Assembly (NCBI RefSeq): GCF_963678975.1
Contig: NC_089273.1
Location: forward strand, 31,992,973 to 32,056,972
Length of the DNA stretch: 64,000 nt
Direction: 5' to 3'
DNA from: Dysidea avara
Lineage: Eukaryota; Porifera; Demospongiae; Dictyoceratida; Dysideidae
Made by a program: the position numbers and the translations under genes. The notes below the pieces were generated by a model that was given only the letters and a program-made list of their open reading frames with translations, was not told the DNA's origin and did not search any database. Position 1 is the stretch's first letter. Every line of letters starts with the position of its first letter. Below, piece by piece: positions 5,303-63,177 of this stretch.

Positions 5303-8300
5303 ATGTCGGGGATCAAGACGGTACGAGAGGTGTTCAAGTCACCGCTACACTTGAAGAAGCGAACAAACCCGTTACTGGTGAGTACCTTTGTGCTGCAGTG
5401 TTGTTGACAGACTTAACGCGTGTTAACCAGTGAATTAAACAAGCGTGTAATACACTGATTGTGAGTCATGTCTGTGGAATCGTGCCGATTCAAAAAAAAA
5501 GAAAAAAAAAGAACAGTTGCAAGGACGAAACGAAACGTTAGCTAGTGCTGATCATAAGAGTGCTGAGATATAGGACAAAATCAGTACCTGAATAAACCAT
5601 AGCTGAAATCTTACTGCTTGAAGCAACGCTGCAGCAAAATGGTTGATTGGTTGATTGGTTGTCATATTGGGGGTAAAGACAATATAAGTTTATAACAGCA
5701 GCAGTCCGGCTGGCTAGTAACAAATTTAGGACGGAACTTACAAGGTAGCTAGCCCATGATCAGTGGGTGTTAATTTTGTGCTGCAATTGAACTTGTAGGA
5801 TTTGTTGTGTTAGAAGTATGCCCAGTTGGCAATAGTGCACAACACATTACGTTGTGCCGCCCAGAAACACCCTTTGCACAACCTTTAATTTATGTAGGTA
5901 GCTTTTGTGTAAGTGTGCAAGTGAATGAGCATTTTGGCTATTTGCACGTATGCTAGCAAACCATGATAGCGTTTGTTAAAATTTTAATTTTTAATTATGT
6001 GAACGTTAGAACAATGTTTTAACCCCGTGTGAGTACAGCACATACATTGAGTGTCTTATAACAGTCTACTGAATTACTGGAAAATTGACCATGTACAGAA
6101 AGCACATCCCATGAAACAACAGTATAAGATAGTAAAGGCTAACTGATTTGCTTAGAAATAAATTACAATGTCTAGTGGTCAAACCAATTAAAAGACGAGA
6201 GCTTTCCTAGAAATTCATATAGACACTAACACTGCCATCTTGTAGTAAATTATATGAGGTAGATACTTTAGCACAAGCTACATTAGACTGCTGAGGAGTA
6301 CGAGTGTTAAATGTTGTTTAATTATGTGTATAACTGAGGTATGTGATATGCATTGGATGTACATCAGTTGTAATAGCCCCTTACGTATGTATACCCATTG
6401 ATCTTTTTTTTGTACTTGCAGTAGGTGTTGATATTAGATAATGTATACTGTACATGTGTGTGTGAAGCAAAATTGTGTGCTTGAATGACGCTGAGAGTGT
6501 ACGCAAAAAAAAAACCCAACTAATTTGAGTCCCTAGACACATATCCTGTTTACCATGTCAAAAGTTATTGTGTAGTAAAAATACGACAGATACCACATAC
6601 TTACCCATTGATTACCTACATATTGTAGTTTACAAGCTGAATAGTACCCATTGATGAAATCATTGTCAACACGACTACAGTACAACAATACTCACAGTAC
6701 CTATTGTGGTACAGCCTTGTTACAATGTTATAGAATTTACAAAATTTCACTGCTTGATGTGTAGGCATGTACCGGAGTGTGAGAACCTTCTTCTGTTTGC
6801 ATAGTCAAACTTGTACTGCTTCTTAAAATATTATTTAGCATGAATACAATAAAAATGGTAAAGTCCATGCATGCATCTTCCCAGCACTCATGGCTCCTCA
6901 ATGAAGTTATTTTATTTGTCAGTTTGTTGTGTGTGCGTGCATGTGTGTGTATGTGCGCGTATGTGTACATGCGTACGGGTGTGTGTGTGTGTGTGTGTGT
7001 GTGTGTGTGTGTGTGTGTGTGTGTGTATTGGTATACATACTGTTACATGGAAATACGTAACAAGAGACCATTGCAACTGCTTATTCATGATCCATTGGTT
7101 TACACCTAAATCAAGTTAGTTCTACCAGTGTCCCCATGTATCTGGTAAATACAGCCATAGTGGTTCAGACTGTAAGTGTTTCACTCCTTAAAAGGTCAAA
7201 ATTATCATTTCTAAAAATGAATATCTTTAAAACACTACCAGTTTGTGTAGGGAACACTTTAACCCATTATGACTAATTAAGAAGGTATCACGCACTGTCA
7301 CAGTGTCACGTACTGTCTCAAACACAAGCACTGTCACAGTGTCACGTACTGTCTCAAACACAAGCACTGTCATAGTGTCACACACTATTGCAAACAGTCA
7401 CAAACACAAGCATTGTCACACTGTCACACACAAACACATCTGTTATCACTAAACTGATTCATAACTGGGAAATGTTTGACTGATGGCTTCCCATTAACCC
7501 ATTAGGCGGTATGTCAACTTTGTACATGTTGAACAAATAGATTTAGGACATCTAGTAACAGTTTGCATCCAATTACACATAATCTCCACACACACATGTG
7601 TAGGATGATTTTGTGTACATGATTAGTGTAACAGTGAACGTGTGTCATACATGTGACCGTCTCAGCACAAACCCACCTAGTTTATATAACTATGAGTTTT
7701 AAGAAAATTGGAATTTAAGTAAAATTGCACATGCTACAAAGAAAAAAATATATAATTGAGCCATTACTCAAGGAAGAAAGTCTCACACCAATTAAACGTA
7801 TGAGTTTGAGTATCTTTGTTTTGTTTCAGTAGTCCCAACTATATACGTGTCATGTGCATTTATTTATGGTGCAGTTAGACATAAAGAAGATCGTCGTCAT
7901 TTCTTCATATAAAATGTTTTCGTACATGCTATGCGCAAGTGACTACAGTGATAAAACTATACCTTGCAAATTCATAGTGAACATTTTAAACCAAACCCAA
8001 CTCTGTAGACCAACACAAACTAAAGTTATGGTTGTGAATTTAAGCTCCTGTTGTTTGTTTTATAGTATGTTTGCTGAAAAAATCCATTCTTTGCTCTTCC
8101 TCCTGTCTAGCACTATAATTCTCCAAAACTACTCACCATGGTAAGCTGTAACTTGGATAACTCATTCCTTGGGCACTGTAGATGATGCTAAAAAAATAAA
8201 AATAAATTCGGAAGTTCTGCAAACTAGACTGGTTTTTGTTGAGAGGATATATGAATAGGATATGACCTAATTCCTTATTAATCCTGATATGTATGTAGCT

Positions 8301-11300
8301 CACACCTTAGACTGGCCCTTGACTGAGATTCTTTGTAGGTAAACAAAATCAACTAGTAGATTTAGGCCTCAGCACATGACGTAATGTAACTATGTTCTTG
8401 TTCTTTAGACATAGTGACTGCCAAACATCTTAAATGTTATTGACAATAAGAAGCATTGACTTTTTAGTACTAGGCCGGCTCAATGGATATTCCATTTAAT
8501 ACTGTATAACTGTGATAGATACTAAGCCAGCCTACCACTATCCCATCTCTGTACATATTATTCACCAATTAAAGAGTTCACAGTTCAGTGAGCCCATTTC
8601 CTTTGTTGGGACAGTACTTGGTTTTAGAAAACACCATGACAATGTATTGTAATGTCAGGTTTATTTTGTGCCGTCCTGTTGGATTATTGTCAAACAGGTG
8701 TGAAATAAACAATCACATCACTACGGCAGCAAAGTATACTTAAGTGTCCATTAGTACATGTTGGTAAATATTTTTTGTGAAAATATATATAATATTTCCA
8801 CTGTTTCACATGTATGCATGCATACAGTACTGCTCAAATGCAACATCGTCTTGTGAGAGTGAAGGCAATAATAAACTTGCTAGTTTAAGGGTGTGGCACC
8901 CATTTCACTCACAGGTATTCATCCTGTTTTGTTTGGGATGAATACGCACAAGTGAAACAGGTGACCCTTTAATTAGAAGTTTTTTAATCGCTCACACTCA
9001 CAAGACGACGTTGCATTTTGAGCGATACTGTAGCTCTGCAGCTTTGCATATACACTCTATTAGGAGTACGTTGAGCATGCAACTCCATACACTACTAACA
9101 TTACAAGCACATGGCATCTTGTGCTAACATTTAGTTACATCATTCTTGCACACAACAGGGGTACACAGAATGAGCTGCCACTCCATAGTTTTGTGGGAAG
9201 GCAGGGAAGCTGCTTCGATAGAAAGGTCATCAAGTTGAAGGAACAGATAGGAATAGTCTGTCAGAGTAATTTTGCAAATGTATAAAAGCTGTTTCATTAT
9301 GCCTGTACTACCATTCTTCCATCACGCCATTAAACCTCTTTCTATAGCTTTGCTTTGTCATACTGCACACTGTACTTAATGTGACATACTAGAGCATGCA
9401 CCTCTATATAATGGAATTAAATTGTTTCATATATAGCAGCCCAACAACTAGTACTACCAACAGCCATTGCAAAATATTTTTTGTTGAATTGTTGTATCAA
9501 TATGTCTACCAGTCTGCATCAAACCATAGTACTACCTTAAGCCAGTAAAACTTCCAGCAACATAATTAAGTATAATAATAAAATATTAAATGTATTGAAA
9601 CATCTCTAATGAACACTTTTGGACCCATAATGCCACATAGCACTAAATTTAACATCGGAAAATTTGGACCGCCTGCCGAGTTATTTTTTGATGAAGTGCT
9701 TTGATATATCAGTAAATTTGGCTAACACACTTTTGTCTAAAATTTCTTCTGTTGTACTTTTCAATACTGTATTTTACTAGAGGTTCTTCTGAAACTTTGA
9801 ATATATGTAGCCAGGGACCAGAATCCTTGTCCTTATTATAATGGCGACCAGTTTTTAAAATAAAAGTTCCACTGCACTTGAAAAGCCAGCAAAACGTTTT
9901 GCATTGCCAGCCACACCCATTACGTGTGCATTTACACACCAGATATAACTGAACTGGTAGTTTCCAATAATATTTTATAAGCCAGATGTGTATCCCTCTA
10001 GTATTGTGAATGGTCATGAGCAATCCCTTGTATTATTTGGTTACTATTCACAACAGTGTTGCTATGGGGATTTGTTGACAGTTACAACACTGTGGCTACA
10101 TATGTATTAAGGTGAATACCTAGTTTATCTCTTGTTGACAAAATCAGATGTTTATCATTTACTCATAAATATCTAGCTTGCTGTGTAGTTGGGTGTACAC
10201 TAGAACAGTATCATTGTCAGAAGAAACCATTTTAAAGTCAGTTGTTTTTGTGTTGTGGCTGACTGAAGCCATTTTAGTCTGTGTAGCCTGCCACTTGTCC
10301 CTGATGGTATTACAACCATTGAACAAAATGTGAATATCTTTGACTGCTTGGCTTGTGACATAATGGTACATAGAAACACAGTACCTGCATAAGAGAATGT
10401 AAGATATAATGCTATCGTACTACTGTGCTAACATGACAAATGTACATGAGTATATTTCTTGTTTAATGACTCGTGTAGTTACAAATTCATAAATGGCTTG
10501 AATCATGGAGTGGTATGATAGACCACCGTTGTGATACGATATCTTTTTATGGATAAGTTCCAATATAGTTATACATCAGTACAATAGTCAGCAGTTTTAC
10601 AATTATCAAGTTTGGATGATGCAAATCTTACCTCATCATTAAAACACCATTTGAGGTGCAAGCTAAGTATCTTCATTAAAAAATATTTTGTGATTAATTA
10701 CAAACTTATTGCTTATGTACATTTTGGTTATGGCCACATCAGTAGTAATAAAACATTGTCTATCCTACAATAAATCATTACCCATACTAGTAATCCATTA
10801 CCGTATACTCTTTACTGTCTGACTGCACATTTCACTCACCATAATTTCTTTTCTACCACTGCATACAAGTTAGGGCCTTGTGTGGGGCTTCTGTCAATCC
10901 ATTTGTCTGTCACTGCAGTAACCTCAATACAAGCCTACTAAAGTTATAGAACTATATAATGTAGAGCAGTAGGATTGCTCATTCCGTATTTTCAAATGTG
11001 AACTGAGACAATATTGTTGTGAAAATGAAGAAACTGTACATCTGAACATTTACTTATAAAAGCACTTATGGATGTTTGACAAGCTAAAAGTTGACGAATT
11101 TAGCTGATTCGTCAACACACACATGTACACACAAATACACATGCGTGCGCACACACACACATGCACACACACACACACACATACACACACACACACACAC
11201 TTGAGCTATGAACATGGAATTTTTTACACATCAGATATAATGCTCTTGGGTATTACATAGTTGTATTAGTTCATGAGTACATGTTAATAATTGTGTGATT

Positions 11301-63120: not shown

Positions 63121-63177
63121 ATGGCCAATCGAGTACCCATAAAGGAAGGTTTAGTGAAGATAAAGTTTAAACATCGG
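63121..63177 (+). CDS. First exon of a sixth adaptor gene, F (partial)
   Basis: A 19-codon exon (MANRVPIKEGLVKIKFKHR) starts at ATG and ends at donor gtaagg in phase 0. The EGxxKIKxKxR core matches exon 1 of C, D and E, and the spacing from gene E fits the array. I could not place the expected W-x-x-R-Y exon 2 before the window ends; ctatttacag near 63911 is a possible acceptor, but what follows does not match well. The rest should lie downstream. Confidence 0.5.

Follow-up and report, generated by a model that had tools for sequence, protein, structure and literature searches.

We describe an array of six tandem animal genes, in the sponge Dysidea avara, that fairly likely encode cytoplasmic, membrane-recruited scaffolds on a DOK-like plan, each with a PH domain, a PTB-like domain and a long Pro/Ser/Thr-rich tail, with docking by the second domain, a four-cysteine (Cys4) site within it and descent from DOK as proposed below. 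The array lies in a 64,000-nucleotide stretch of genomic DNA (the window; bases 31992973-32056972 of contig NC_089273.1, here C2), which holds five genes in full and the beginning of a sixth, arranged head to tail along the plus strand. The sixth gene, g6, is complete some 8 kb past the window end. The six-gene array is real. An earlier note on the window had described a tandem array of at least six genes with the same intron positions and phases, and with five spliced lengths that are multiples of three. All of this was borne out when the models were rebuilt independently by means of splice sites, the reading frame and alignment of the paralogues, and when g6 was completed from 26 kb of genome sequence fetched beyond the window. 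The models are as follows, in window numbering.

5303..15843, plus strand: gene 1 (g1), 1148 aa, an open spliced frame with GT-AG borders and intron phases 0,1,1,1,1; exons 5303-5377, 11314-11359, 11693-11905, 12434-15163, 15246-15323, 15539-15843
16713..21942, plus strand: gene 2 (g2), 466 aa; exons 16713-16808 (tentative), 18084-18132, 19881-20141, 20736-21260, 21473-21942 (3′ end tentative)
29093..39350, plus strand: gene 3 (g3), 597 aa; exons 29093-29188, 34727-34763, 34832-35041, 35140-35835, 36259-36369, 36516-36584 (acceptor tentative), 37572-37679, 38884-39350
42598..51505, plus strand: gene 4 (g4), 684 aa; exons 42598-42690, 45544-45580, 45633-45842, 46037-46708, 49192-49299, 50571-51505
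55787..60956, plus strand: gene 5 (g5), 577 aa; exons 55787-55879, 57051-57087, 57155-57364, 58100-58885, 60020-60136, 60466-60956
63121..63177, plus strand: first exon of g6, within the window; the gene encodes 522 aa and ends at 72292, with plus-strand exons past the window end at 67533-67569, 68137-68334, 68627-69358, 71386-71487, 71850-72292

Each model has its own ATG, an intact frame and a single terminal stop, and the coding lengths with stop (3447, 1401, 1794, 2055, 1734 and 1569 nt for g1 to g6) are multiples of three in all six. GT..AG borders are found in 31 of 31 introns; the first intron of every gene is in phase 0 and every later one in phase 1. The least secure joins are exon 1 of g2, which was picked from a splice-rule scan, the 3′ end of g2, and, in g3, the acceptor for the exon that ends at 36584, where several choices are possible. 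Among g3, g4 and g5, DNA identity within exons is 0.63-0.80 for 10 of the 11 matched exon pairs, while flanks 40-139 bp from the same exons show 0.43-0.59, near the random level (pairs of random 100-bp stretches average 0.49, with a 95th percentile of 0.56). The eleventh pair, g3E8-g4E6, has an identity of 0.40, and the exons compared there differ in length. Since exon identity lies above that of flanks and random pairs, and since the PH match described below is gained on joining exons, we take the exons to be real.

Pfam PH matches all six spliced N-terminal regions at E values up to 1, in agreement with the PH-like domain previously read in each gene. For g3 the match reaches E 9.2e-7 (29.8 bits vs a cut-off of 25.1) with the exons joined, and E 0.032 on one exon only. 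A PDB search with the PH profile returned 12 matches, all weak (best E 0.014; Dok-7 at E 0.23), all of which we take to be proteins with PH domains. Pfam did not report FERM lobe families in the six N-terminal regions, finding PH instead, in a search that a weak match could escape.

The second domain was located in the five genes of the window as follows.

12436..12786, plus strand: PTB-like domain of g1
35142..35492, plus strand: PTB-like domain of g3, with equivalents at 20738-21091 (g2), 46039-46389 (g4) and 58102-58452 (g5)

AlphaFold models of this domain from g3 and g1, which as starting paralogues are 30% identical, both give the PH/PTB/FERM-F3 superfold. When residues are counted from the tryptophan (W) of the domain in an ungapped DOK alignment, the tryptophan is kept in all six members, as are hydrophobic residues at W+5, W+8, W+15 and W+17 and Asp or Glu at W+18. 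We take W+6 and W+21 to be the phosphotyrosine-contacting arginine sites, from an alignment to DOK2 (phmmer search with the DOK gene on contig C10) and from DOK numbering. Across the six proteins W+6 is K, K, K, K, R and Q, and so basic in five, and W+21, the second of these arginine places in the ungapped DOK register, is Pro in every one; the pair of phosphotyrosine-contacting arginines of the DOK family is complete in none of the cluster members. In IRS-1 the corresponding contacts are made by Arg212 and Arg227, according to PMC3507883. What the six proteins share instead is a CPxC-x22-C-x4-C motif of identical spacing, whose four cysteines account for four of the 16 columns that are invariant. 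The genomic positions of its two halves, worked out by hand from the alignments, are given below.

35346..35357, plus strand: CPHC of g3, the motif being invariant in all six members, with its Pro at the second-Arg position
12646-12657 (g1), 20951-20962 (g2), 46243-46254 (g4), 58306-58317 (g5), plus strand: CPxC equivalents of the g3 CPHC
35424..35441, plus strand: CLDFFC helix motif of g3, 22 residues after CPHC, in all six members
12724-12741 (g1), 21029-21046 (g2), 46321-46338 (g4), 58384-58401 (g5), plus strand: equivalents of the g3 CLDFFC

The model places the second cysteine pair in its C-terminal helix; mean pLDDT for the loop that follows CPxC is 60 (first model, residues 71-80) and 66 (second model). 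CPxC is a widespread form of zinc knuckle. Given this, the fixed Cys4 spacing and the cysteine pair in the helix, it is plausible that the four cysteines form a putative structural zinc site near the former phosphotyrosine pocket. The second domain seems to have exchanged part of the phosphotyrosine grip for four strictly conserved cysteines; it is constrained, and probably does not read phosphotyrosine the way DOK does. The receptor-facing module envisaged in the earlier note, if taken as one that reads phosphotyrosine, is thus not supported and may be wrong, with Pro at W+21 in all six proteins and four invariant cysteines instead. In the review PMC3507883, PTB domains of the IRS-like class are described as phosphorylation-dependent and most of the Dab-like class as phosphorylation-independent. 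We tentatively put forward a bolder proposal, which we hold to be somewhat less probable than its opposite: a zinc-stapled PTB-like domain arose in an early-animal docking-protein lineage when a Cys4 metal site took the place of the DOK-type phosphotyrosine pocket, with CPxC at the second-Arg position and CxxxxC in the C-terminal helix, yielding a docking module independent of phosphotyrosine, which tandem duplication then multiplied as the tails diversified.

A plain expansion of ordinary, fast-evolving DOK paralogues, whose PTB domain still binds phosphotyrosine via changed residues (Lys or Arg at W+6; His, Lys, Asn or Gln at W+22), would explain the PH-PTB order, the tails and the shared introns. 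It also suits the basic residue at W+6 in five of six members, and the FRS2-like gene L006 of the same genome, which likewise lacks the W+21 Arg (it has Ser). We nevertheless regard this explanation as unlikely, because Pro occupies W+21 in all six proteins, the PTB signal is missing at the sequence level, and the invariant Cys4 was not seen in the six canonical own-genome PTB domains aligned.

Gene structure also points to a DOK-like plan, and the family probably descends from a DOK ancestor, on moderate support. This genome has 13 IRS-family matches. The gene on contig C10 (L026) is a canonical DOK (Pfam PH 2.3e-11, IRS 1.4e-13; phmmer best match DOK2 at 4e-14), and its PTB exon starts after a phase-1 intron between G and KYEV, directly before PTB strand 1. 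The cluster has its phase-1 border before the second domain at the comparable place, between G and KYHYV in g2 and between G and TLFHV in g1. A gene on C9, identified by Pfam IRS only, has a phase-1 border directly before its PTB domain as well, so that the pre-PTB phase-1 intron is common to the cluster and both genes examined. The first exon of the C10 gene ends in phase 0, and its PH exon opens, likewise in phase 0, a single residue ahead of the tryptophan. The second exons of all six cluster genes start in phase 0 two residues before the PH tryptophan position (Tyr for Trp in g4), one codon apart from C10. This match was seen in the one of the two genes for which a PH exon was found; for the C9 gene Pfam found none within about 9 kb upstream of the PTB domain, the distance over which it was sought. 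The cluster genes carry a further phase-1 intron within PH.

Two other own-genome genes, L006 on C7 and L007 on C13, start with MGNC followed by an IRS-type PTB domain and are FRS2-like, the best match of L006 being FRS2/SNT-1 (E 7e-17). Frs2 is given as apparently absent from Porifera in PMC7260276; with this genome a sponge's, the reported absence needs revisiting. The genome has at least 34 homeobox matches, counted by exon, in keeping with the repertoire of a sponge. Five of the 13 IRS-family matches (L001, L002, L003, L004 and L028; on C11, C6 and C8) are talin-like (FERM F3) by inspection, and C8 carries a pair of these at a distance of 23 kb.

The tails were compared with shuffled versions of themselves, pooled across the six proteins. 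YxN occurs 12 times vs 3.8 in shuffled tails and PxxxPR 12 times vs 1.5, counts reached by none of 1000 shuffles in either case, and PxxPx[KR] occurs 8 times vs 3.5 (reached by 21 of 1000). The pooled YxN and PxxxPR motifs are those that a DOK-family tail, with its phosphotyrosine and SH3 docking sites, would carry, and an adaptor reading of the six proteins is reasonable. By gene the YxN counts are 5, 1, 1, 2, 3 and 0 for g1 to g6; the description of the tails as YxN-rich therefore stands for the pool and for the presence of the motif in five of six tails, but not for every tail, with none in g6 and one each in g2 and g3. YxxM was seen 4 times vs 1.4 expected (52 of 1000 shuffles), and the tails are not clearly YxxM-rich as in the IRS family. 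Assignment to the DOK/IRS family, as first suggested, holds for the DOK-like plan, the PH domain, the tail motifs and the shared introns; an IRS-type PTB is not borne out by sequence, and the assignment fails for the two phosphotyrosine arginines and a YxxM-rich tail. Because of Pro at W+21 in all six and K/K/K/K/R/Q at W+6, we describe the array as a variant of the DOK-like plan and do not file it as a DOK family member, while keeping the claim that it works like DOK.

Constraint differs along the proteins. In the six pairs of g3-g6, dN/dS (Nei-Gojobori with Jukes-Cantor) is 0.18-0.22 for the PTB-like domain, 0.22-0.41 for PH, 0.60-0.93 for the middle region, which is gap-rich and unsurely aligned, and 0.34-0.72 for the C-terminal part; in 10 of 12 comparisons with g6 the synonymous distance is over 1, near saturation. 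A local expansion with divergent tails, as the earlier note had it, is what these values describe: constrained N-terminal modules and looser tails (0.34-0.93). Duplication is visible within g3 as well.

32889..32978, plus strand: second copy of the g3 first exon (tblastn), with its own ATG, a possible alternative start
36259..37679, plus strand: proline-rich phase 1-1 exons of g3, DNA identity 74% and 80%

The 5′ flank of the g3 first exon is also duplicated (28775-28843 and 32605-32672), and both duplicated blocks show 81% DNA identity. Exons 36259-36369 and 37572-37679 duplicate one another, and exon 36516-36584 is a copy of the 3′ portion of the exon that ends at 35835. A C-terminal block is common to g4 and g6 and missing from the g3 and g5 proteins. 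By sequence comparison the tails are mosaic, with phase 1-1 exons lost, gained and duplicated and the N-terminal modules kept under constraint. The mosaic tails, the duplicated g3 first exon and the Cys4 motif were not among the earlier observations. The g1 tail contains an in-frame repeat array at 13832-14308, with a 48-bp period and 9.6 copies.

These same duplications of the g3 first exon and proline exons, and the tail mosaicism, could be expected of an array in partial decay, certain copies being pseudogenes or else exons that belong to a single large locus with alternative splicing, and the models are known from genome sequence alone. Such an explanation is very improbable in view of the separate ATG, stop and intact frame of all six genes and of the dN/dS of 0.18-0.41 in the N-terminal modules of g3-g6.

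Several results weigh against reading six intact genes as DOK-like scaffolds. Pfam IRS/PTB has no match in any of the six members at E values up to 10, and the best match of the second domain in a PDB sequence search is an antibody (E 0.79). When the PTB-like family was compared, profile against profile, with six IRS-type PTB domains of the same genome (C10, C9, C13 and three on C7, the five talin-like and two short C12 matches being left out of the PTB alignment), the score was 14.85, which is not significant, as 3 of 40 column-shuffled controls beat it (best shuffle 17.3; one reversal was also used as a control). Foldseek with the g3 model gave no match passing E 0.001, and by fold the domain matches PTB no better than it does PH and FERM F3 domains. 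The VIA-align Z scores, among which differences under 1 are ties, were 10.2 for both DOK-5 PTB and talin F3 with the g3 model, 10.9 for IDOL F3 and 10.3 for TAPP1 PH with the g1 model, and 10.0 and 9.8 for IRS-1 PTB. In the tails, class I [KR]xxPxxP (4 vs 3.4; 426 of 1000 shuffles) and YxxP (5 vs 7.4; 882 of 1000) are not enriched, and the motif counts pool related genes that are not independent. The PH-boundary introns could be shared by chance, and the gene models themselves were built from genomic DNA only.

With no Pfam IRS/PTB or PDB sequence match, the label ‘PTB’ is based on the fold, the order of the domains and the structure of the genes. The PTB-like domain of the earlier note, and the structure prediction it had proposed as a check, accordingly stand as far as the PH/PTB superfold in two AlphaFold models; an IRS-type PTB is not recognised by sequence, and PTB is not separated from F3 or PH folds. 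The list of 50 entries given for the g1 model includes no DOK PTB, but it shows one domain class and excludes nothing. The second domain might be another PH domain, or a module resembling FERM F3, in double-PH-superfold lipid or protein scaffolds convergent with DOK, as Z scores for talin F3, IDOL F3 and TAPP1 PH equal to or above those for DOK-5 and IRS-1 PTB would allow. We find this improbable, given the pre-PTB intron and the W...D/E register common with DOK, the six N-terminal regions that match Pfam PH and not a FERM lobe, and YxN in five of six tails.

Within the 551 Mb assembly (108 contigs), a search with the g3 PTB-like domain gave six matches, all cluster loci, and one with the g1 domain gave eight, six of them cluster loci; the PH exon recovered four of the six (g3-g6). 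Further copies elsewhere were rejected, only the six loci being convincing among the best-scoring candidates, the only ones such searches score, so that weaker relatives could be missed. A match on C12 (E 0.064) consists of 29 similar residues among stop codons, and one on C3 (E 1.16) lies inside a 976-aa frame that is transposon-like by inspection; their values of 1.7e-4 and 7e-5 against two 10-kb stretches alone reflect the tiny database. In collections beyond animals, 26 pattern stretches in viral contigs and 27 in genome contigs yielded no confirmed relative, which says little since both collections are non-animal. Among the titles and abstract openings listed by a literature search, neither a tandem DOK array in sponges nor a zinc-binding PTB domain was found.

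If the six proteins are DOK-like scaffolds, the PH domain would most likely hold them at phosphoinositide membranes, while the PTB-like domain, probably stabilised by zinc in its Cys4 site, would dock a partner, perhaps a receptor tail, without the usual two-arginine phosphotyrosine grip. The enriched tail motifs suggest that YxN tyrosines could be phosphorylated to recruit GRB2-type SH2 domains, and that PxxxPR and PxxPx[KR] may bind SH3 proteins. Sequence comparison shows duplication in which the N-terminal modules stayed constrained and the tails lost, gained and duplicated phase 1-1 exons.

The surroundings of the genes include a perfect (CA)n repeat, some 590 units long and lying between g4 and g5 (54009-55187), of unusual length and purity, and a reverse-transcriptase fragment on the minus strand between g2 and g3 (26271-26840; Pfam RVT_1, E 0.0011, below cut-off). 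Intron 1 of g3 contains a satellite of roughly 31/89 bp (31132-31412), and a longer array of it recurs downstream of g6 (79266-82124, window numbering; L016/L017). The upstream neighbour, 10 kb before the window (L018), encodes two UBZ-type ubiquitin-binding zinc fingers on the plus strand (E 1.3e-7 and 4.7e-6).

PH-PTB docking proteins are usually few per genome in model animals. With six genes that join a fixed membrane and docking front part to tails that diverge, a simple animal would be able to turn a single type of input into several outputs. The replacement of Arg by Pro, alongside a conserved Cys4, provides a case in which a change in what a PTB-type domain recognises can be tested directly. 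The Hakai HYB domain is dimeric, contains a RING, binds phosphotyrosine and is unrelated to the PH superfold. As a zinc-coordinating domain in phosphotyrosine signalling, it is a point of likeness, as described in PMC3507883. FRS2 and FRS3 share the IRS-type PTB fold class, and the FRS2-like L006 also lacks Arg at W+21, but where they have an N-terminal Met-Gly site, the proteins of the cluster carry a PH domain. IRS-1 to IRS-4 differ in their tails, those of the cluster not being clearly YxxM-rich. Likeness is seen with DOK1 and DOK2, including the C10 gene, in the order of PH, PTB-type domain and tail, and in the C10 introns, one of phase 1 directly before PTB and one of phase 0 at the PH tryptophan, a codon off that of the cluster. 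The array departs from them in a PTB domain not recognisable by sequence, in Pro for the second phosphotyrosine Arg, in the invariant CPxC-x22-C-x4-C, in the extra phase-1 intron inside PH, and in its six tandem copies.

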